Below, piece after piece: positions 40,050 through 51,672 of a stretch of DNA of 64,000 bases (its first letter is position 1; each line of letters opens with the position of its first letter). This DNA comes from Natronococcus occultus SP4. GTDB lineage: Archaea; Halobacteriota; Halobacteria; Halobacteriales; Natrialbaceae. Made by a program: the position numbers and the translations under genes. The notes beneath the pieces are model-generated. The model was not told where the DNA came from, ran no database searches, and was given only the letters and a program-made list of their open reading frames with translations. Where the stretch lies: NCBI RefSeq assembly GCF_000328685.1, contig NC_019974.1, positions 797,001-861,000 on the forward strand, given 5' to 3'.

Positions 40050-42710
40050 TCAGCCGAACTCCTCGAGACCCCGCTGGGTATCCGACCGATCCCGGACGTA
40101 GTCGGCGATTTCGGCGTAGGCGTCCTCGTTTTCGATCTCGGCCAACTGTTCGAGAGCCGCGATCGCGCCGTCGTCGGTCCAGGGGCCGAACTCCCGAACC
40201 AGGCGGTCGGTCTCGGCGAGGTGGAAGAGGTAGTGGGCCCTGTCCACGGCGAGGGGATCGTCCTTCTCCTCGATCAGCTCGACGCGGTCGCTCGGCGCCA
40301 CTACCAGGAGCTGCTCGCCGTCCCGCTCGAGAAGTCCCTCCGCGACGAGATCGTCGACGTCGACCGCGCGCCGTCGGAGGTCCTCGCGCAAGGTATCGGC
40401 CGCGATCGTCCCCCCGCGACCCAGGACGGTGGCCAGGTAGACGGCGGTCGTCGGCTCGGTCGCCTCGCTCAACAGCCGAACCCGTTCGCTCAGCAGTCGC
40501 TCGACGACGACGTCGCGGATCGTCGCTATCGCGTCGTCGACCGAGACGCGCTGGCCGTCGCGGGTCACGTTCGGGTAGTGCTCCGAAAAGGCCTCAAGGC
40601 ACGTCCCCATCGCGACGGCGAAGACGTCGCCCCGCGCGAGCCGCGGTCCGTCGGCCTCGAGTCGTTCGATCGCCTCGCTGGCTCGGTCGTGGATCTCCTC
40701 CAGGAGGGTCTCCCAGCGCACCGCTTCCGGCTCCTCGCGGCGGGAGCGACAGACGACGATCACGTCGTACTCGATGCTGTCCTTGTTATGGATGTGGGTG
40801 CTGCCGCGCATCTCGCCGCGGATCGGATGGACCGCCGTCACCGTGAACCCGGCCTCGAGGACGGCCGTTAGCACCGTGCTCCAGCCCGCGGTCTCGGTAT
40901 GGTGGAACGTAAACGCCATGACGCCGTCGTCTTTGAGCGCACGGTTTGCCTCCTCGAAGACGCTCGTCAGTCCCGCAACGAAGTGCTCCTCGTCGCGGTA
41001 GGTCTCGACGCTGTCGGCGCTGGCAGGGTCGCTGACGACCTCGCTGGCCTTGGGCGTGCGCTCGGGGGCAAACTGGTCGTACTCGTCCTCGAGGACCTGT
41101 GTGAGCCAGACGTAGTAGAAATCCGCCGTCTCGGCGTACATGACGTTGTCGAGGTAGGGCGGGTCGGTGATGACCGCGTCCACGCTGTCGTCCGCGACGG
41201 GCAGCTGCTCGGAGCTGCCACACCGCAGGAAGACGTTCCCCTCGCTACCGAGGTCGGCGGGGTCGTCGACGAGGCGGCCCTCGATCTCGCCGACGCCGTT
41301 TTGCTGTTTCGTCTCGCCGTCCTCGACGTACTTCTCGTAGGGGTTCCGACAGAACTCCTTGCCGGCCCGCATCTTCTCGAACGCCGTCGAAAACGTCGCG
41401 GCGCCCTCGCTGGCGCCCCAGACGTTGTTCTCGACCGGCGTGTGGCGGGCCGTGATCGTGTGGCGCTTGTACAGCCCCTGGATCTTGTTCTCCGAGCTGT
41501 GGTACTCGCAGAACATGTTGTTGAAAGCCAGGCTGTCCGAGAACGCGAGCAAGAGAAACTCCCTGACGTTGCGGTCCTCGAGATCGGCGATGGCCGCGAG
41601 CAGCTTGCCGAGACAGAGCAGCTGGCGGTCGTTGAACATCTGGTCGTACCGCTCGAACCCGTACTTCCGGGCGCGGTCGGAGCTCCCCCGATAGCGCTCG
41701 GTGGTGGGGATCGGCAGCGAGTCGCGCGTCTCGGCCAGCTCCGCCTGCGCCGTCGCGAACAGCTCCCGATCGAACGAGCTCGCCGGTTTGTACCCTTTCT
41801 CGCCGCTCTCCGAACAGTAGTACTCGACCGCGTAGAGCGCGCGCTCGGGTGCCCCGTACCGGTCGACGGCTTCGACGATCGACATTCCAGTGCCCGCCTC
41901 GCAGTGCGGACAGGTGTAGCTCCCGCCGTCGACGGTCCCCGCGGTCTCGGGGACGAACTCCCAGGAACAGTCGGGACAGGCGGTCTCGGTTCGGTAGTCG
42001 TCGGTCTCGAAGACGTGCCGGCAGCCGGGACAGACGACGATATCGCGGTCGTTCGCCGCGGATCGGGCCTCGGCGAGCCGGTAGTCGTTGAAGAGGGCGA
42101 CGGGCTCTGCACACTCCAGGCAGGGAACCTCGTTGACCCAGAACTGGTACATCGACGCCGCGCGGTGGTCGTCCTCGCAGTCCGGACAGTCGGTGCGGTA
42201 GTAGTCCCGGATCTCGCGGCCGACGGTCGCCTCCAGCTGCTCGAAGGCCGCGTCGAGGACGTCGAGGTCGACGGGTTCGACCTCCTTTTTCACGACGAAC
42301 CACGCGACGGGGTTTAGCTCGCTCCCGATCGCGGTACAGCCCAGCCGGAGCGACTCGACGACGCTCGTCCCGCCGCCCATAAAGGGGTCCAGGACGGTCT
42401 TCCCGTCGAAGTCGACGTCCTCGAGGTAGTACTGCCAGAGTGCCTCGGGGTCGTCCCAGTCGATCTTCGGGAGGCCGTCGTCCTCGCCGAGGGTTGACTG
42501 GCGCGTGCCGGTCACGCTCAGCTCCCGGTCGGCGAGCGAGTACAGCACCATCGTCCGGAACACGCTACCGAGGCGACGTGCCCACCACTTGTGCATCGTG
42601 TAGACGGGTCGGTAGTAGCGCTTCGCGTGGGCCTCCCGTTCGGCGATCTCGTTGACCCGATCCGTCGGGAACGTGAGCTCGATCGGTCGCTCGGGCTGCT
42701 CGTCGGACAT
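40050..42710 (-). CDS. DUF1156-family DNA adenine methylase
   Basis: An 886-aa protein. The N-terminal DUF1156 part contains YRPVYTMHKWWARRLGSVFR. SAM-binding motif I is DPFMGGGTSVVE (about residue 108) and the catalytic motif is TDPPYLDNVMY. Between them is a zinc-ribbon region with several CxxC pairs (CPDCEDD, CLECAEP, CPGCRHV, CPDCSWE, CPHCEAG). This architecture matches large DUF1156 N6-adenine or N4-cytosine methylases, which in many haloarchaea are encoded with a DUF499 ATPase and helicase in a defence-like operon. None of these partners is here, so it is an orphan. Confidence 0.9.
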   Translation of the reverse strand: MSDEQPERPIELTFPTDRVNEIAEREAHAKRYYRPVYTMHKWWARRLGSVFRTMVLYSLADRELSVTGTRQSTLGEDDGLPKIDWDDPEALWQYYLEDVDFDGKTVLDPFMGGGTSVVESLRLGCTAIGSELNPVAWFVVKKEVEPVDLDVLDAAFEQLEATVGREIRDYYRTDCPDCEDDHRAASMYQFWVNEVPCLECAEPVALFNDYRLAEARSAANDRDIVVCPGCRHVFETDDYRTETACPDCSWEFVPETAGTVDGGSYTCPHCEAGTGMSIVEAVDRYGAPERALYAVEYYCSESGEKGYKPASSFDRELFATAQAELAETRDSLPIPTTERYRGSSDRARKYGFERYDQMFNDRQLLCLGKLLAAIADLEDRNVREFLLLAFSDSLAFNNMFCEYHSSENKIQGLYKRHTITARHTPVENNVWGASEGAATFSTAFEKMRAGKEFCRNPYEKYVEDGETKQQNGVGEIEGRLVDDPADLGSEGNVFLRCGSSEQLPVADDSVDAVITDPPYLDNVMYAETADFYYVWLTQVLEDEYDQFAPERTPKASEVVSDPASADSVETYRDEEHFVAGLTSVFEEANRALKDDGVMAFTFHHTETAGWSTVLTAVLEAGFTVTAVHPIRGEMRGSTHIHNKDSIEYDVIVVCRSRREEPEAVRWETLLEEIHDRASEAIERLEADGPRLARGDVFAVAMGTCLEAFSEHYPNVTRDGQRVSVDDAIATIRDVVVERLLSERVRLLSEATEPTTAVYLATVLGRGGTIAADTLREDLRRRAVDVDDLVAEGLLERDGEQLLVVAPSDRVELIEEKDDPLAVDRAHYLFHLAETDRLVREFGPWTDDGAIAALEQLAEIENEDAYAEIADYVRDRSDTQRGLEEFG

Positions 42711-43040: not shown

Positions 43041-44129
43041 ATGGGAGGATTTGACATAGAGACGGAAGCGGGACGACGGGAGGCGTTGCGACGAATGCTG
43101 ACGATCCGCGCGTTCGACAGCGAGGCCGGAGATCGGTTCGCGGACGGCGAGATCCCCGGCTTCGTTCACCTCTATATCGGCGAGGAGGCGGTCGGCGTCG
43201 GCACCTGCGCCGCCCTCGAGGACGACGACTACATCGCCAGCACCCATCGCGGTCACGGCCACTGCATCGCGAAGGGGCTGGATCCGAAGTACATGATGGC
43301 CGAGCTGTACGGGAAAGCCGAGGGCTACTGCAACGGCAAGGGTGGCTCGATGCACATCGCCGACGTCGACGCGGGGATGCTCGGCGCCAACGGGATCGTC
43401 GGCGCGGGACCACCGCTTGCGACCGGCGCGGCGCTGTCGATCGACTACCAGGACCGCGACCAGGTCGCGGTCGGCTTCCTCGGGGACGGCGCGGTCGCCC
43501 AGGGCCAGGTCCACGAGGCGATGAACCTCGCGGCGACGTGGGATCTACCGGCGATCTTCGTCATCGAGAACAACCAGTACGGCGAGGGGACGCCCGTCGA
43601 GGACCAGCACAACGTCGACAACCTGAGCGACACCGCTCAGGCCCACGACATCCCGGGGCTGACCGTCGACGGGATGGACGTCACCGCGGTCGCGGAGGCC
43701 GTCGGCGAGGCCCGTGCCCGCGCCAGGGCCGGCGACGGGCCGTCGCTGATCGAGGCCGAGACCTACCGCTACCGGGGCCACTACGAGGGCGACGAGGAAC
43801 CCTACCGCGACGAGGACGAGATCGAGCGCTGGAAGGACCGCGACGCGATCGACTCGTTCAAACAGCGGCTGATCGACCGGGGTGAGCTCACCGACGAGGA
43901 GTTCCAGGAGCTCGAGCACGAGGTCGAGGCCGAGATCGAGGCGGCGGTCGAGTACGCCCGGGAGGCAGAGCCGCCGGCGCCCCACGAGGCCTACGACGAC
44001 ATGTTCGCCGAGACGCCCCCCGAGATCGAGCGCTTTGCGACTGCCGCGCGGACCGACGGCGGTGAGCGAATCGACGATTCGCGATCCACACCGGATCGTT
44101 CGCGATCCGAGGGAGGTGAACGACAATGA
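43041..44129 (+). CDS. 2-oxoacid/acetoin dehydrogenase E1 component, alpha subunit
   Basis: A 362-aa thiamine-diphosphate enzyme subunit. The TPP motif runs from GDGAVAQG (about residue 149) to IENN. RGHGHCIAKG and CNGKGGSMHI are typical of PDH/acetoin dehydrogenase alpha chains. It decarboxylates a 2-oxoacid or acetoin and passes the acyl group to the lipoyl E2. The C-terminal 35 residues are low-complexity. It overlaps the beta gene by 4 bp. The true substrate is not decided by the sequence. The AcoX-like neighbour favours acetoin. Confidence 0.88.
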   Translation: MGGFDIETEAGRREALRRMLTIRAFDSEAGDRFADGEIPGFVHLYIGEEAVGVGTCAALEDDDYIASTHRGHGHCIAKGLDPKYMMAELYGKAEGYCNGKGGSMHIADVDAGMLGANGIVGAGPPLATGAALSIDYQDRDQVAVGFLGDGAVAQGQVHEAMNLAATWDLPAIFVIENNQYGEGTPVEDQHNVDNLSDTAQAHDIPGLTVDGMDVTAVAEAVGEARARARAGDGPSLIEAETYRYRGHYEGDEEPYRDEDEIERWKDRDAIDSFKQRLIDRGELTDEEFQELEHEVEAEIEAAVEYAREAEPPAPHEAYDDMFAETPPEIERFATAARTDGGERIDDSRSTPDRSRSEGGERQ

Positions 44130-45136
44130 CTGCCCAGACCGAACGCGAACTCGAGACCGAGACCGAGACGATGACCGTTCGGGAGGCCGTCCGCCAGGCG
44201 CTGCGCGAGGAACTCGAGCGCGACGAGGACGTCTACCTCATGGGCGAGGACATCGGCGTCTTCGGGGGCGTCCTCGAGGTCACGAGCGGTCTGTACGACG
44301 AGTTCGGCGCCCAGCGCGTGCGGGATACGCCGATCAGCGAGGCCGGCTTCATGGGCGCGGCGACGGGTGCGGCGGCGACGGGCACCCGCCCGGTCGTCGA
44401 GCTCATGTTCTCGGATTTCGCGGGCGTCTCGATGGAACAGATCATGAACCAGATGGCGAAGATGCGCTACATGTTCGGCGGGAAAGCCGAGATGCCCGTC
44501 ACGGTCCGCACCACCGAGGGCGGCGGGATGGGCGCCGCCAGCCAGCACTCGGGGACGATCCACACCTGGATTAGCCACTTCCCCGGGCTGAAGGCCGTCG
44601 CACCCGGCACCGCCGCGAGCGCGAAGGGGCTGACGAAGGCCGCGATCCGGTCGGACGACCCCGTCTTCGTCTTCGAGAACAAGATGATCTACGAGCAGGA
44701 GGGCGCGGTGCCGACCGACGAGGAGTTCACGATCCCGATCGGCGAGGCCGCGATCGAGCGCGAGGGCGAGGACGCCACGGTCGTCGCCACCCAGCGGCTG
44801 GTCGGCGAGTCGCTCCAGACCGCCGAGAGCCTGGCCGAGGCCGGCGTCGAGGCCGAGGTGATCGATCCCCGGTCGCTGTACCCTCTCGACACGGAGACGA
44901 TCGTCGAGAGCGTCCGGAAGACGGGACGGCTCATCGTCGCCGACGAGAGCCCGCTGTCGTACGGCACCCACGCGGAGATCATCGCCCGCGTCCAGGAGGA
45001 GGCGTTCTTCAGCCTCGACGCGCCGATCCAGCGGGTCGGCACGCCCGACACGCACATGCCGTTTAGCACGCCCCTGGAGCAGGAGGTCCTGCCGGACGGC
45101 GACGACGTCCGCGAGGCGATCGAGCGGGTGACCTGA
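44126..45136 (+). CDS. 2-oxoacid/acetoin dehydrogenase E1 component, beta subunit
   Basis: A 336-aa partner of the alpha subunit, completing the TPP-binding heterotetramer. Family segments are YLMGEDIGVFGGVLEVTSGL, RVRDTPISEAGFMGAATGAA and the transketolase C-terminal domain with DPRSLYPLDTETIVESV. A strong Shine-Dalgarno GGAGGTG lies 7 bp before the ATG inside the alpha gene, supporting coupled translation. Confidence 0.92.
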   Translation: MTAQTERELETETETMTVREAVRQALREELERDEDVYLMGEDIGVFGGVLEVTSGLYDEFGAQRVRDTPISEAGFMGAATGAAATGTRPVVELMFSDFAGVSMEQIMNQMAKMRYMFGGKAEMPVTVRTTEGGGMGAASQHSGTIHTWISHFPGLKAVAPGTAASAKGLTKAAIRSDDPVFVFENKMIYEQEGAVPTDEEFTIPIGEAAIEREGEDATVVATQRLVGESLQTAESLAEAGVEAEVIDPRSLYPLDTETIVESVRKTGRLIVADESPLSYGTHAEIIARVQEEAFFSLDAPIQRVGTPDTHMPFSTPLEQEVLPDGDDVREAIERVT

Positions 45137-45139
45137 GCG

Positions 45140-46171
45140 GTGGATCGTGTCGGCCTGGTCGTCAACCCCGCCGCCGGGCGCGACATCCGGCGGCTCACCG
45201 GCGGCGCCAGCGTCGTCGACGACTACGCGAAGCGACGGGTCGCCGACTGCGTCCTCGAGGGGCTGACCGCGGTCGCCGACCCCCTGGCCGTCCGGCTGAT
45301 GCCCGACCGGTCCGGGATCGCCGACCACGTCCTCGAGGAGGCGCCCGACGAGCTCGAGGCCGCGGCCCTGGAGATGTCCGTCGAGAATACGGCCGCGGAC
45401 ACGCGTCGAGCGGCCGCGCAGTTTCGCAAGCAGGGAGTCGGCGCCGTCGTCGTCCTCGGCGGGGACGGGACGACCCGCGACGTCGCGAGCGAGATCGGCT
45501 CGGTTCCGGTCGTCGCCGTCTCGACGGGGACGAACAACGTCGTCCCGTCGGCCGTCGACGGCACCGTCGCGGGCGTCGCCGCAGCGCTGCTCGCGACCGA
45601 CGTCGTCCCGGCTGCCGACGTCACCGAGCGCCACGGCGTCGTCGAAGCACGGGCCGAGACCCCGAACGGCGAGCGAAACCTGTCCGCGCTGGCGGCCGCC
45701 GAGGTGTCCTCGCGGTCGTTTATCGGCTCGCGGGCGCTGCTCGATCCCGGCGACCTCCGTGGGGGCGTCGTCTCGCGGGCCCACCCGGGAGACATCGGCC
45801 TCCCCGCAGTCGCCGGAGCACTCGAACCCGTCGCCCCCGCCGCGCCCGGCGGCGTGGCGCTCCGGCTGACCGATCCCGAGGACGCCCCGCGGACCGCGCG
45901 GGCGACGCTGGCACCCGGCGTGGTGGCGACCGTCGGGATCGAGTCGTGCGAGCGTGTCGAGCCCGACGACCCGGTTCGGTTCGAGGTTCCGGACGGCGTC
46001 GTCGGCGCCGACGGCGAGCGCGAGCTCGAACTCACGGATACGACCGTCGAGTTCCGGGTCCGCGCCGACGGCCCGCGGCTGGTCGACGTCGACGCCGTCC
46101 TCGCGGCCGGGAGCGAAGCGGGCGCGTTCGTGATCGAGAGGGCCGACCACCCGCCCGCTCGGGAGGACTGA
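45140..46171 (+). CDS. ATP-NAD kinase-like protein (AcoX family)
   Basis: A 343-aa protein beginning with GTG, 3 bp after the E1 beta stop. It contains the NAD-kinase hallmark GGDGTTRDVA (about residue 108) and the start VGLVVNPAAGRDIRR. AcoX-type members lie in acetoin catabolism operons and resemble NAD kinases, but their reaction is not established. Its position inside the dehydrogenase operon argues for a cofactor-linked or regulatory role there. The operon continues with a VOC protein. Confidence 0.82.
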   Translation: MDRVGLVVNPAAGRDIRRLTGGASVVDDYAKRRVADCVLEGLTAVADPLAVRLMPDRSGIADHVLEEAPDELEAAALEMSVENTAADTRRAAAQFRKQGVGAVVVLGGDGTTRDVASEIGSVPVVAVSTGTNNVVPSAVDGTVAGVAAALLATDVVPAADVTERHGVVEARAETPNGERNLSALAAAEVSSRSFIGSRALLDPGDLRGGVVSRAHPGDIGLPAVAGALEPVAPAAPGGVALRLTDPEDAPRTARATLAPGVVATVGIESCERVEPDDPVRFEVPDGVVGADGERELELTDTTVEFRVRADGPRLVDVDAVLAAGSEAGAFVIERADHPPARED

Positions 46172-46233: not shown

Positions 46234-46743
46234 ATGGTTGGTGAAGACATACCACAGATCGGCGTCGAGCTCCCCGAACTCTCGCAGGTCGCGTTCGTTG
46301 TCGAGGACATAGAGGACGGGATAGACCGGTTCGACGGACTGCTCGGGATCGGTCCCTGGGAGATCCACCGGTTCGAGCCGCCCGCAATGACCGACCGGAC
46401 CTTCCGGGGCGAGGACGGCGAGTTCTCGATGCTGCTCGCGCTCGCACAGCTCGGGGACACGATGATCGAGCTGATCGAGCCCCTCGAGGGGCCCAGTATC
46501 TACACCGAGCACCTCGATGAGCACGGCGAGGGGCTCCACCACGTCGCCTGCTTCGCGTTCGAGGACCCTCACGCCGTCGTCGAGGCGTTCGAGGACGCGG
46601 GGATGCCGGTGCTCCAGAGCGGGAACTACGAGGGCGTCGAGTTCTGGTACGTCGACACCGCGGACGAACTCAACGGGACGATCTTCGAGACCGCGGCGAA
46701 CGTCGAGTCGCTTCCTGAACCCGACGCAACGTACCCGGAGTGA
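46234..46743 (+). CDS. VOC-superfamily protein (epimerase/glyoxalase-like)
   Basis: A 169-aa protein with two VOC beta-alpha-beta modules: LSQVAFVVEDIEDGIDRFDG and GLHHVACFAFEDPHAVVEAF. A metal site of the H/E type is partly visible (His in LHHVACFA, Glu in TMIELIEP and TIFETAAN). Methylmalonyl-CoA epimerase-like or lyase activity is possible, but the first conserved His is replaced by Gln (SQVAF), so function is uncertain. It is the last plus-strand gene of the dehydrogenase cluster and converges on E2. Confidence 0.75.
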   Translation: MVGEDIPQIGVELPELSQVAFVVEDIEDGIDRFDGLLGIGPWEIHRFEPPAMTDRTFRGEDGEFSMLLALAQLGDTMIELIEPLEGPSIYTEHLDEHGEGLHHVACFAFEDPHAVVEAFEDAGMPVLQSGNYEGVEFWYVDTADELNGTIFETAANVESLPEPDATYPE

Positions 46744-46759
46744 GCGATCCCAGCGACCC

Positions 46760-48565
46760 TTAGAGACGCTCCCAGGAGAGCTCCAGCGACAGGTCCTCGC
46801 GAAGCAGCTGCGAGACGTGACAGCCCCGCTCGCCGAGATCGACGATCCGCTCGAGCGTGTCGTCGTCGGCGTCGCTCTCGAGGCGAATCGTCGCGGCGAG
46901 CTGCTCGACGGCGCCGTGCTCGGGTTCGGCGTCGGTCGTGACGTCGATCTCGCCGACTGCGGCGTCGCGCTTTTCGGCCTGGAACCGAACCGAAAGCGAG
47001 AGGCAGGCCGCCAGTCCGCCGAGGAAGACGTCGACCGGGGTGGGACCGGTCTCCGAGCCGCCGGCGTCCTCGGGCTCGTCGTAGGACCACTCGAACGAGC
47101 CCGCCTCGATCCGGCCGGCCATCCCTTCGGGATTAGAGGCGGTGACGGTTCGGCCGGGCATCTCGGTTTCGGTCCCGTCCGCGCGGTCGACGTCCTCGGG
47201 GAGCAGCGACCACGGCTCCTCGACGCGCTCGATCAGCGTCTCGAGGAACCTGGCGGCGTCAGCGCCGTCGACGACCCGGTGGTCGAAAGAGAGGTCGAAC
47301 GGGAGGTGACGGCGCCACTCGACCCCGTCGTCGGGGTCCCGCGTCGGTCGTTCGGCGACGGCGTCGACTCCGAGGATCGCGACCTGGGGCGGATTGATAA
47401 CCGGATCGAACGACTCGACGCCCAGCACGCCGAGGTTCGTCACCGTGAACGTCCCGCCCCGCAGGTCGTCCATCGTGTACTCGCCCTCGAGGGCGGCCCC
47501 GACGAGCTCGCGGCGCTCGCGTGCGACCGTCTCGAGGGACTTCTTCTCGACGTTCCGGAGCACCGGGGCGATGAGCCCCTGTTCGATGTCGACGGCGACC
47601 CCGAGGTTGTGGTCCGCCCAGAGGCGGTGGGTGTCGTCCTCGAAGGTCGCGTTGAACGCGGGATGGTCCTCGAGAGCCGCCGAGACCGCGAGCAGGAGGA
47701 CGTCCTGGACGGAGACGTCGGCGTCGAGGACGTCGTTCGCGGCGTCGGCCGCGGCGAACAGCGCCTCGGCGTCGGCCTCGCGGTGGGTCGTGACGTGGAC
47801 GGCCTCGCGGTAGCTCTCGCCGAGCCGCGAGGCGATCGTGCGGCGCATCCCGTCGAAGGGCCGCTCCTCGCGGAGCGTTCGTCCGGCGTCGTCGACCGAT
47901 TCGGCCGCACGCTCGACGTCGTCCTCGGTGACCGATCCCTGGTACCCCGTCCCTTCGACGGTCGCGAGGTCGACACCCAACTCCTCGGCGCGCTTGCGGG
48001 CCCGCGGAGAGGCCTGGACCGCCGTCGCTACGCCCTCGTTGGTCTCGGCCGCACGCTCGACGTCGTCCTCGGTGACCGCGCCCTGGTACCCCGTCCCCTC
48101 GATTCCCTCGAGCTCCACGCCGAGCTCCTCGGCCCGTTTCCGTGCGCGTGGCGAGACCTTGCCCGTGTCGGCGGCCGCCCCCGCCCCGGTCGCCGCCTCC
48201 GAGGTGGCACCGTCGGTCGCGGCTTCGGCACCCGAGTCCGCGTCCGCGGTCGCAGCAGGCGTCTCGCCGGCGTCAACGTCCTCGAGTTCGGCCTCGACCT
48301 CGGCCTCAAGGTCGCCGATATCCGCGTCGGCGGGAGCGACGATCCCGATCGGCGTCCCGGGCGGCACCGACTCGCCCGGCTCGAGGTAGGTTCGCCGGAG
48401 GACGCCGTCCTCGCGGGCGTCGATCTCACCGATGCTCTTCTCGGACTCGACCTCGGCGACGAGTTCACCCTCTTCGATCGTCTCGCCTTCCTCGACCGCC
48501 CACCCCAGCAGCTCCCCGCGTTCCATCTCCAGCCCGAGCTTCGGCATCTTGATAACATAACCCAT
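46760..48565 (-). CDS. E2 dihydrolipoyl acyltransferase with two subunit-binding domains fused to an OsmC domain
   Basis: A 601-aa protein. Domains: lipoyl (1-80, lipoylated Lys43 in ESEKSIGEI), linker, subunit-binding domain 1 (about 137-173), near-identical domain 2 (about 186-222), catalytic CoA-acyltransferase (about 232-455, active site DHRVVDG at 428-434), then an OsmC domain (471-601). The OsmC part has GPTPVDVFLGGLAACLS with Cys521 and ERGCHVSQLL with Cys582, the two cysteines of thiol peroxidases in this family. Continuous frame, no stop between E2 and OsmC. The E2 should serve the E1 encoded next to it. The start MGYVIKMPKLG is standard. Confidence 0.9.
   Translation of the reverse strand: MGYVIKMPKLGLEMERGELLGWAVEEGETIEEGELVAEVESEKSIGEIDAREDGVLRRTYLEPGESVPPGTPIGIVAPADADIGDLEAEVEAELEDVDAGETPAATADADSGAEAATDGATSEAATGAGAAADTGKVSPRARKRAEELGVELEGIEGTGYQGAVTEDDVERAAETNEGVATAVQASPRARKRAEELGVDLATVEGTGYQGSVTEDDVERAAESVDDAGRTLREERPFDGMRRTIASRLGESYREAVHVTTHREADAEALFAAADAANDVLDADVSVQDVLLLAVSAALEDHPAFNATFEDDTHRLWADHNLGVAVDIEQGLIAPVLRNVEKKSLETVARERRELVGAALEGEYTMDDLRGGTFTVTNLGVLGVESFDPVINPPQVAILGVDAVAERPTRDPDDGVEWRRHLPFDLSFDHRVVDGADAARFLETLIERVEEPWSLLPEDVDRADGTETEMPGRTVTASNPEGMAGRIEAGSFEWSYDEPEDAGGSETGPTPVDVFLGGLAACLSLSVRFQAEKRDAAVGEIDVTTDAEPEHGAVEQLAATIRLESDADDDTLERIVDLGERGCHVSQLLREDLSLELSWERL
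47901..48154 (-). repeat. Tandem duplication of the subunit-binding domain in E2
   Basis: Units beginning at 47901 and 48045 are highly similar at DNA level over about 110 bp, offset by exactly 144 bp (48 codons). They encode the two subunit-binding domains (PRARKRAEELGV in both). Confidence 0.8.
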
Positions 48566-48828: not shown

Positions 48829-50733
48829 ATGAGCGATGACGAACTCATCTGGCGAGTCTCAGGCGGTTCCGGAGACGGGATCGACTCGACGAGTCAGAAC
48901 TTCGCGAAGGCGCTGATGCGCTCGGGGCTCGACGTATTCACACACCGCCACTATCCATCGCGGATCCGTGGCGGCCACACCTACGTCGAGATCCGGGCCG
49001 CAGCCGACGAGGTACAGTCACGGGGCGACGGCTACAACTTCCTCCTCGCGCTCGGGGACTCCTTCGCCCGGAACCCCCAGGAGGAAGCCTACTACGGCAA
49101 CGAGGAGATCAAACCCCTCTCGGAGAACCTGGACGAACTCCGCGAGGGCGGTGTCATCGTCTACGACGAAGGGCTGCTCAGCGAGGACGACGTCGAAGAG
49201 CTCGAGTTAGAGGAGCGCGCCGAGGAGAACGACTGGCACGTCTACCCGGTCGACCTGCGCGGTCTCGCCAAGGAACACGGCCGCGAGGTCATGCGAAACA
49301 CCGCCGGTATCGGCGTGACGGCGGCGCTGCTCGACATGGATCTCGAGCACATCGAGGACCTGATGTCCGACGCGATGGGCGGGGACGTCCTCGAGTCGAA
49401 CCTCGAGATCCTCCACGAGGCCTACGAGATGGTCGACGACGACTTCGAGACGACCCACGACCTGCGCGCCCCCGAGGGGGACCACGACACCGAGCAGGCG
49501 CTGCTGTCGGGCTCGAACGCGATCGCCTACGGCGCGATCGACGCCGGCTGTCGGTTCATCGCCGGCTACCCGATGACGCCGTGGACGGACGTCTTCACGA
49601 TCCTCAGCCAGAACTTCCCCGATATGGGCGGCGTCTCCGAGCAGGTCGAAGACGAGATCGCCGCGGCCGCGCTCGCAGTCGGTGCGAGCCACGCCGGCGT
49701 CAAGGCGATGTCCGGCTCCTCGGGCGGCGGGTTCGCGCTGATGAGCGAGCCGCTCGGCCTCGCCGAGATGACCGAGACGCCGGTCGTGCTCATCGAGTCG
49801 ATGCGCGCCGGTCCCTCGACGGGGATGCCGACCAAACCCGAACAGGCCGACCTAGAGCACGTCCTCTACACGAGTCAGGGCGACTCCCAGCGCGTCGTCT
49901 TCGCGCCGGGTAACATCGAGGAGGCCTACGAGCAGACCCGACTGGCCTTCGACATCGCCTGGGACTACCAGATTCCGGCGATCGTCATCTACGACCAGAA
50001 GCTCTCGGGCGAGAACAAGAACGTCGACGTCGACTTTTTCGACCGCGAGCCCTCGCCGGATCTCGGCTCGACGCTGACCGAGGAGGAACTGAAGGAGGCC
50101 GCCCACGACGCCTCCGGGAAGTTCAAGCGGTTCGATTACAAGGAGGCGACGGACGGCGTCGCCTCGCGATCGATCCCCGGCCAGAAGGGCGGGCGCTACC
50201 TCGCGACCGGCAACGAGCACTCGCCGGTCGGTCACATCAGCGAGGACCCCGACAACCGCGTCTTCCAGATGGAGCGACGCCTCGAGAAACTCGAGCAGAT
50301 CCGCGCGGAGCTCGACGAGGAACGTGACTCCACTCAGACCTACTTCGGGCCGGAGGAGGCCGACTACGGGATCATCACGTGGGGCTCCTCCCAGGGTGCC
50401 GTCGAGGAAGCGATCGAGCGCCTGAACGAGCAAGGCCACTCGGTAAAGGGCATCAGCGTCTCCGATATGATGCCTTTCGCCGAGACGGAGGTCACGGAGT
50501 TCCTCGAGAGCGTCGACGAGGCGATGGTCGTCGAGATGAACGCCACCGCGCAGTTCCGCGGCCTGATCCAGAAGGAGCTGGGTCGGTTCGGCGACAAGAT
50601 GACCAGCCTCCTGAAGTTCAACGGCAACCCCTTCGAGCCCGCCGAGATCGTCGAGGGCTACGAAGTCAACCTGGCCGACGAGGACCGGCAGCCAGAGGCA
50701 CAGGTGCGAATCGAACCCGCTGCAGGTGACTGA
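48829..50733 (+). CDS. korA: 2-oxoacid:ferredoxin oxidoreductase, alpha subunit
   Basis: A 634-aa fused gamma/alpha subunit. The N-terminal gamma domain starts SDDELIWRVSGGSGDGIDST and contains HYPSRIRGGHTYVEIR. The alpha domain has GYPMTPWTDVFTIL, then SHAGVKAMSGSSGGGFALMS. With the beta subunit it oxidatively decarboxylates 2-oxoglutarate or pyruvate to acyl-CoA with ferredoxin as acceptor, the standard route in haloarchaea. The start at MSDDELIW is preferred over an upstream ATG whose extra residues are atypical. An AT-rich promoter region precedes it. Confidence 0.93.
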   Translation: MSDDELIWRVSGGSGDGIDSTSQNFAKALMRSGLDVFTHRHYPSRIRGGHTYVEIRAAADEVQSRGDGYNFLLALGDSFARNPQEEAYYGNEEIKPLSENLDELREGGVIVYDEGLLSEDDVEELELEERAEENDWHVYPVDLRGLAKEHGREVMRNTAGIGVTAALLDMDLEHIEDLMSDAMGGDVLESNLEILHEAYEMVDDDFETTHDLRAPEGDHDTEQALLSGSNAIAYGAIDAGCRFIAGYPMTPWTDVFTILSQNFPDMGGVSEQVEDEIAAAALAVGASHAGVKAMSGSSGGGFALMSEPLGLAEMTETPVVLIESMRAGPSTGMPTKPEQADLEHVLYTSQGDSQRVVFAPGNIEEAYEQTRLAFDIAWDYQIPAIVIYDQKLSGENKNVDVDFFDREPSPDLGSTLTEEELKEAAHDASGKFKRFDYKEATDGVASRSIPGQKGGRYLATGNEHSPVGHISEDPDNRVFQMERRLEKLEQIRAELDEERDSTQTYFGPEEADYGIITWGSSQGAVEEAIERLNEQGHSVKGISVSDMMPFAETEVTEFLESVDEAMVVEMNATAQFRGLIQKELGRFGDKMTSLLKFNGNPFEPAEIVEGYEVNLADEDRQPEAQVRIEPAAGD

Positions 50734-50736
50734 ACA

Positions 50737-51672
50737 ATGAGTGCATTCAACGCAATCGGTGAGGAACGAGAGATCGACCGGGACGAGTTTACGCCCGGTG
50801 TGGAACCGCAGCCGACCTGGTGTCCGGGCTGTGGCGACTTCGGCGTACTGAAGTCGCTGAAGCAGGCACTCCCCGAACTCGGCAAGAACCCGGAGGAGGT
50901 CCTGACGGTCACCGGAATCGGCTGTTCCGGCAAGCTCAACAGCTACCTCGACACGTACGGATTCCACACGATCCACGGCCGCTCGCTGCCCGTCGCCCGC
51001 GCGGCGAAGCTGGCCAACCCCGAGCTCGAGGTCATCGCCGCCGGCGGTGACGGCGACGGCTACGGGATCGGCGGCAACCACTGGATCCACTCGGCCCGCG
51101 AGAACCACGACATCACGTACATCGTGTTCAACAACGAGATCTTCGGGCTGACGAAGGGCCAGACCTCGCCCACCAGCCCGAAGGGCCACAAGTCCAAGAC
51201 CCAGCCCTCCGGCAGCGCGAAGACGCCGCTGCGACCGCTGTCGACGTCGCTGAACGCCGGTGCGAGCTACATCGCCCGCACCGCCGCGGTCAACCCCAAC
51301 CAGGCAAAGGAGATCATCAAGGAAGCCATCGAACACGACGGCTTCGCCCACGTCGACTTCCTGACCCAGTGTCCGACCTGGAACAAGGACGCCCGCCAGT
51401 ACGTCCCCTACATCGACATCCAGGACTCCGAGGACTACGACCACGACATGAACGACCGCGCCGAGGCCGCCGAGATCATGCGTGAGACCGAGGACGTCCT
51501 CAACGAGGGGACCGTCCTGACGGGTCGGTACTACGTCGACGAGGACCGTCCGTCCTACACCGAGGAGAAAAAGGCCGTCGGCGAGATGCCCGACCAGCCC
51601 CTGGCCGAGCGGTACTTCGACGAGGACGCCGAGTGGGAGCGCAGCTACGACCTGCTCGAGCGCCACAAGTAG
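50737..51672 (+). CDS. korB: 2-oxoacid:ferredoxin oxidoreductase, beta subunit
   Basis: A 311-aa TPP- and Fe-S-binding subunit. Cysteines for the [4Fe-4S] cluster are in TWCPGCGDFG, GIGCSGKLN and LTQCPTWNKD. The TPP motif is GDGDGYGIGGNHWIHSA to VFNN. It lies 3 bp after the alpha gene. It gives electrons from the TPP intermediate to ferredoxin. Confidence 0.94.
   Translation: MSAFNAIGEEREIDRDEFTPGVEPQPTWCPGCGDFGVLKSLKQALPELGKNPEEVLTVTGIGCSGKLNSYLDTYGFHTIHGRSLPVARAAKLANPELEVIAAGGDGDGYGIGGNHWIHSARENHDITYIVFNNEIFGLTKGQTSPTSPKGHKSKTQPSGSAKTPLRPLSTSLNAGASYIARTAAVNPNQAKEIIKEAIEHDGFAHVDFLTQCPTWNKDARQYVPYIDIQDSEDYDHDMNDRAEAAEIMRETEDVLNEGTVLTGRYYVDEDRPSYTEEKKAVGEMPDQPLAERYFDEDAEWERSYDLLERHK

Follow-up and report, generated by a model that had tools for sequence, protein, structure and literature searches.

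Why should the acyltransferase (E2) subunit of a 2-oxoacid dehydrogenase complex end in an OsmC domain? The question is raised by a gene of the haloarchaeon Natronococcus occultus SP4, located in a stretch of 64,000 nucleotides of its 4.31-Mb genome (G000:C1:797001-861000, hereafter the window, whose own numbering is used for all coordinates). A preliminary description of this DNA suggested that the gene product brings a lipoyl-dependent peroxidase, likened to the Ohr type, onto a dehydrogenase complex that would be self-protecting or peroxide-coupled. The explanation that we favour as a whole, and to which we give about an even chance, is that the protein is the E2 of an acetoin-/PDH-like 2-oxoacid dehydrogenase joined to a YhfA-like OsmC domain, which would act as an autonomous dithiol redox unit.

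Architecture and genomic context of the E2-OsmC gene

The gene lies on the minus strand at 46760..48565 (ATG at 48565, stop codon at 46760-46762) and encodes 601 amino acids in one continuous open frame, as the preliminary description had stated without giving a strand. Read on the plus strand, the same interval was without any Pfam match; all coordinates in this paragraph refer to the minus strand. The lipoyl, two subunit-binding, acyltransferase and OsmC domains named previously were all found by Pfam, in that order. The lipoyl domain (residues 5-74, 48344..48553; PF00364 Biotin_lipoyl, E 1.2e-12) contains the lipoylated Lys43 of an ESEKS motif (codon 48437-48439). It is followed by a first peripheral subunit (E3/E1) binding domain (residues ~138-172, 48050..48154), matched by PF02817 in two stretches and showing helices at 139-148 and 166-176 in the structure model, and by a second one (residues 183-218, 47912..48019), which is the best copy of PF02817 E3_binding (E 1e-26). 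The acyltransferase catalytic domain (residues 233-455, 47201..47869; PF00198 2-oxoacid_dh, E 4.2e-67) is connected to the OsmC domain by a linker (residues 456-473, 47147..47200) whose length differs among the aligned species and whose pLDDT falls below 50 at residues 464-468. The OsmC domain itself (residues 474-600, 46766..47146) matches PF02566 over residues 503-596 (E 3.7e-15; 56.6 bits with a cut-off of 27.5), and its pLDDT in the model of the full fusion is mostly about 90 or above, the AlphaFold models being those of monomers. Both cysteines of the domain are present with the residue numbers given before, Cys521 (codon 47003-47005) and Cys582 (46820-46822), and an acidic residue, Asp512, is encoded at 47030-47032.

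The E2 part of the protein looks fully functional from its sequence. The catalytic HxxxDG motif is represented by His429 and Asp433 (FDHRVVDG), and the protein also has the features expected of a member of the E2 family, namely a modifiable lysine, the binding domains and adjacent E1 genes. In a Foldseek search with the full-length model, only E2 cores appeared among the matches listed.

On the plus strand, and facing the fusion gene, are encoded an E1 alpha subunit (43041..44129; PF00676, E 2.1e-93), an E1 beta subunit (44126..45136; PF02779/PF02780), an AcoX-like protein of the ATP-NAD-kinase family (45140..46171; PF01513/PF00781) and a VOC/glyoxalase-like protein (46252..46743; PF13669, E 9.6e-17), the last one convergent with the E2-OsmC gene. 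The closest curated family of E1 alpha is PDH E1 alpha (TIGR03182), with a score below its cut-off. Within the PDB it comes closest to human PDH E1 alpha, followed by Thermus and Bacillus E1, which do not decide the substrate. None of the acetoin-specific curated E1 or E2 families reached its cut-off. An AcoX-like gene stands beside E1 alpha and beta; a PDB search with the AcoX-like protein found no solved relative. Divergent from the fusion gene is a pair encoding the alpha (48829..50733, plus strand; TIGR03710, 635.8 bits, over cut-off) and beta (50737-51672) subunits of a 2-oxoacid:ferredoxin oxidoreductase. Further away, at 40050-42710 of the minus strand, an 886-aa protein is encoded that resembles DNA methylases of the DUF1156 type.

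Elsewhere in the Natronococcus genome there are three free OsmC genes and a canonical E1-E1-E2-E3 cluster with lipoyl synthase (LipA) beside it, so that lipoylation and E3 are available to the host of the fusion. Oxidation of pyruvate and 2-oxoglutarate in haloarchaea is the work of ferredoxin-dependent enzymes, and for most of the NAD-type complexes the substrate is not known (PMC8305020).

Distribution of the fusion among haloarchaea

We searched 392 genomes of the haloarchaeal order, a sample and not an exhaustive set, with the whole protein and, separately, with its OsmC domain. Close OsmC relatives (E<=1e-20) occur in 54 of them, as a full E2-OsmC frame in 41, a short frame of 218-305 aa in nine and a separate OsmC gene in four, these classes being based on open-frame length and the inspection of about 40 loci. 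The fusion is spread over several haloarchaeal families, and the matches include the same-genus species Natronococcus jeotgali and N. amylolyticus. Across 18 aligned fusions the E2-OsmC junction is conserved, and the lipoyl lysine, the catalytic His and Asp of E2 and both OsmC cysteines are invariant; a C-terminal segment of E2 (P451, L454, L455) is conserved as well. A comparison of 37 OsmC domains of every kind leaves just four invariant positions, Pro510, Cys521, Pro548 and Cys582. Since the frame is uninterrupted in 41 genomes and the junction is conserved, the fusion is no artefact, and a sequencing error, a frameshift or a chance fusion is excluded.

The search across haloarchaea for the fusion and its E1 neighbours, which the preliminary description had suggested, thus places the gene most often opposite the dehydrogenase genes: at most of the inspected loci with the full form, it is faced by E1 alpha, E1 beta and an AcoX-like gene. 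The AcoX-like gene adjoins the E1 genes in most loci, and the VOC gene intervenes in some loci only. In Natrialbaceae, the pair for the 2-oxoacid:ferredoxin oxidoreductase adjoins both the full and the short forms, divergently, as in the window. Some E1-AcoX loci (G196, G311) lack the OsmC domain, which indicates that the complex can do without it. In a tree of E2 cores the OsmC-less E2s are placed among the fusions with weak branch support, suggesting losses of OsmC. Additional OsmC copies were seen at two loci: a second, free OsmC gene adjoins the E2-OsmC gene in G264 (L034, 773-1531, minus strand, the same as L099, 7204-7962, minus strand), and a second, decayed copy lies beside a partial VOC match in G332 (L126, 7593-7982).

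In one genus (G329, G246, G237, G374), OsmC is a separate gene of the same cluster. Where read, the E2 next to it (L105, L106) retains the lipoyl lysine together with two binding domains, and its catalytic motif is degenerate, TYDARAIGG instead of SFDHRVVDG. This E2 is kept beside E1 alpha/beta-AcoX, and the gene layout is the same in L127 and L128. A more distant type of fusion (L119, L123) has E1 alpha and beta adjacent and an HxxxN motif in place of HxxxD.

A profile search across the phylum located OsmC outside the haloarchaea chiefly in short frames, together with one frame of 553 aa (G589). For bacteria, a tblastn search confined to 72,556 plasmids gave no location that covered 80% of the query; the plasmid-borne E2 relatives are annotated as '2-oxo acid dehydrogenase subunit E2'.

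Nature of the OsmC domain and the E2-free proteins

The premise that lipoyl proteins reduce Ohr and OsmC is borne out by the literature, in which lipoyl proteins, E2 subunits included, serve as reductants of both (PMC8945050). The assignment of the domain to the Ohr type did not hold. It scores 22.9 bits against the curated Ohr family, whose cut-off is 88.85, and in a profile alignment, not a superposition of structures, the Glu of the Ohr motif NPE corresponds to Val511 and the Ohr Arg to Met or Leu; Asp512 is an acid one residue past the position of the Glu. In XfOhr, Arg19 and Glu51 activate the peroxidatic cysteine (PMC5962072). With a score so far below the cut-off and both residues missing, the domain is not Ohr-type. 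YhfA proteins, whose function is unknown, have both cysteines and neither Arg nor Glu (PMC8945050), which is also the pattern of the fusion. By these residues, and with an OsmC tree that holds no YhfA, OsmC or Ohr references, the domain appears to be YhfA-like. When the OsmC profile was compared with PDB sequences, the matches included 2onf, 9wo1 and the Ohr 3eer. A working dithiol is strongly implied by the sequences, and it is very probable that the domain has a dithiol redox function.

The most informative relatives are the short proteins, here called minis, in which a lipoyl-like domain is directly followed by OsmC and the binding domains and E2 core are gone. They occur in nine of the 392 genomes and in Natrinema gelatinilyticum (L058), that is, in ten cases, mostly at the same locus; six of the nine adjoin the same 2-oxoacid:ferredoxin oxidoreductase pair as the full form. 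Among nine minis scanned with Pfam, the lipoyl-like domain scored above the cut-off in six, below it in one (L058) and without a match in two (L087, L113). When modelled, the Halobiforma nitratireducens mini retains a lipoyl-type beta fold and an OsmC fold; Foldseek ranks 2onf first (E 5.9e-10, TMt 0.83), with numerous Ohr structures among the further matches, including Ohr crystallised with dihydrolipoamide. All ten minis keep both OsmC cysteines, but none has the lipoyl lysine: it is substituted, or the ESEKS hairpin around it is disrupted, in differing ways. The lysine is kept in all full fusions examined with the exception of G063 (L125), where E2 core and OsmC remain and the neighbouring E1 is lost too; this protein may be an intermediate between full fusion and mini.

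E1 alpha of the type found beside the fusion, which shows 80-85% identity in four control genomes with full or split forms, is absent from the nine mini genomes (completeness 85% for G380, 70% for G089 and 99% for the other seven), where only paralogues of 31-39% identity were found. The OsmC tree, built on few alignment columns, places the minis within the full fusions, and its well-supported branches require no fewer than six changes of state. Rough dN/dS values, obtained by simple counting, are 0.23, 0.26 and 0.39 for OsmC in sister pairs of minis and 0.13-0.25 in full pairs, whereas for the lipoyl part they are 0.25-0.43 in mini pairs and 0.04-0.21 in full pairs. As far as such counts can tell, OsmC is under purifying selection in the minis and the lipoyl-like part is relaxed. 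We read the minis as repeated losses of the dehydrogenase in which OsmC would have been kept for its own sake.

These proteins bear on each of the explanations considered. Since they retain OsmC without a lipoyl lysine, its function is independent of lipoyl on its own chain, and a necessary role in the self-protection of the complex, or a necessary dependence on the lipoyl of that complex, is contradicted. The model of the preliminary description, a peroxidase of Ohr type guarding its own complex, gains something from the proximity of the domains, the invariant cysteines and the precedent that Xylella Ohr sets with SucB and PDH subunits (PMC8945050); we nevertheless consider it improbable, as the domain is of another type, is conserved where the complex is gone and is absent from some sister complexes. 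What survives of that proposal is a real and conserved fusion with an invariant dithiol in a genome that provides E3 and LipA. A purely structural role, in which a dimeric OsmC fold would only organise the assembly of the E2 core, would agree with the position of the domain at the E2 C-terminus and with the dimeric state of OsmC/Ohr proteins (PMC8945050). It is very improbable indeed, given that the domain and its cysteines persist without an E2 core in the minis and as separate genes, and that the C-terminal segment of E2 is conserved as such.

A stronger competitor is a lipoyl-independent, YhfA-like redox module that works with another thiol system (gamma-glutamylcysteine, thioredoxin, persulfides) and is merely tethered to E2. 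The loss of the lipoyl lysine in the minis, the separate OsmC gene of one genus and an active site lacking the Ohr Arg and Glu all speak for it, and we regard it as a serious possibility, roughly a one-in-three matter. On the other side, 41 genomes retain OsmC on one chain with a lipoyl protein, and both of the subfamilies studied so far are known to be reduced by lipoyl proteins (PMC8945050). Moreover, the mini genomes still carry GcvH and/or another E2, so that a lipoyl donor in trans remains available to the minis in principle.

Proposed function and comparison with known systems

In the explanation that we favour, OsmC would be an autonomous dithiol/disulfide redox enzyme tethered to the complex, and its redox function is probably an independent one that goes beyond protecting that complex. 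Cys521 would react with the oxidant and Cys582 would resolve. In the full fusion, the flexible lipoyl arm, charged by E1 or E3, may reach OsmC and would be its likeliest reductant, with electrons passing from NADH through E3 and dihydrolipoyl to OsmC; that lipoyl is the donor in the full fusions we rate a little short of an even chance. The minis would have to be reduced in trans, either by a different lipoyl protein (another E2 or GcvH) or by some other thiol. The candidate oxidants are an organic peroxide or another oxidised thiol or sulfur species, and peroxide as the physiological substrate is plausible, if on balance somewhat doubtful. A link of OsmC to TusA or a sulfur relay was sought and nothing usable was found.

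Several observations weigh against this explanation. The lysine is lost in every mini, although a lipoyl-OsmC mini would be the ideal self-contained unit, and this makes in-cis lipoyl reduction less probable as the point of the fusion. The YhfA-like active site also lacks the residues to which Ohr owes its speed as a peroxidase, and E1-AcoX loci without OsmC exist. The most far-reaching version, a new class of E2 with a YhfA-type dithiol oxidoreductase fed by the lipoyl arm, from which E2-free lipoyl-like/OsmC proteins arose repeatedly by loss of the complex, is rather unlikely though worth considering. If OsmC is indeed fed by the lipoyl arm, this would give a first function for YhfA-type OsmC. 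The natural variants lacking the dehydrogenase, the lipoyl site or the fusion constitute a ready series for this type of protein, which could show whether it draws electrons from lipoyl and what gets reduced. They also offer a lead on the open question of the role of haloarchaeal 2-oxoacid dehydrogenases.

As far as our tools show, the parts are known and the fusion and its minis are apparently undescribed. We found no description of an E2-OsmC fusion in the open-access literature searched, which is weak evidence of absence; in genome databases such proteins will be listed under generic names. Compared with the E2 of haloarchaeal 2-oxoacid dehydrogenases of the PDH/acetoin type, the fusion has the same lipoyl, binding and acyltransferase domains, with intact Lys and HxxxDG and E1 adjacent, but differs in its two binding domains and the extra C-terminal OsmC. 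PDB 9wo1 (400 aa), among the closest PDB sequence relatives, likewise has OsmC at the C-terminus of a longer chain. The N-terminal partner in proteins of that kind is presumably an alpha/beta hydrolase and not a lipoyl enzyme. YhfA-type OsmC proteins resemble the fusion domain in having both cysteines and no Arg/Glu pair, but they are free-standing, whereas the domain described here is joined to E2 and is separated, in the OsmC tree, from the free OsmC proteins of haloarchaea that were sampled. In Trichomonas, to judge by a title cited in PMC10332631, OsmC occurs with a lipoyl system, an incomplete glycine decarboxylase complex; there the proteins appear to be separate and to belong to a eukaryotic organelle. 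The Ohr/OsmC lipoyl-dependent peroxidases share with the fusion the OsmC fold and two cysteines, and their reduction by E2-borne lipoyl is known, E2 subunits binding Xylella Ohr (PMC8945050); the fusion differs from them in that the catalytic Arg and Glu are not conserved, the Ohr score is far below the cut-off and the domain is fused to E2. Those known peroxidases are separate proteins and draw their electrons from E2 subunits.
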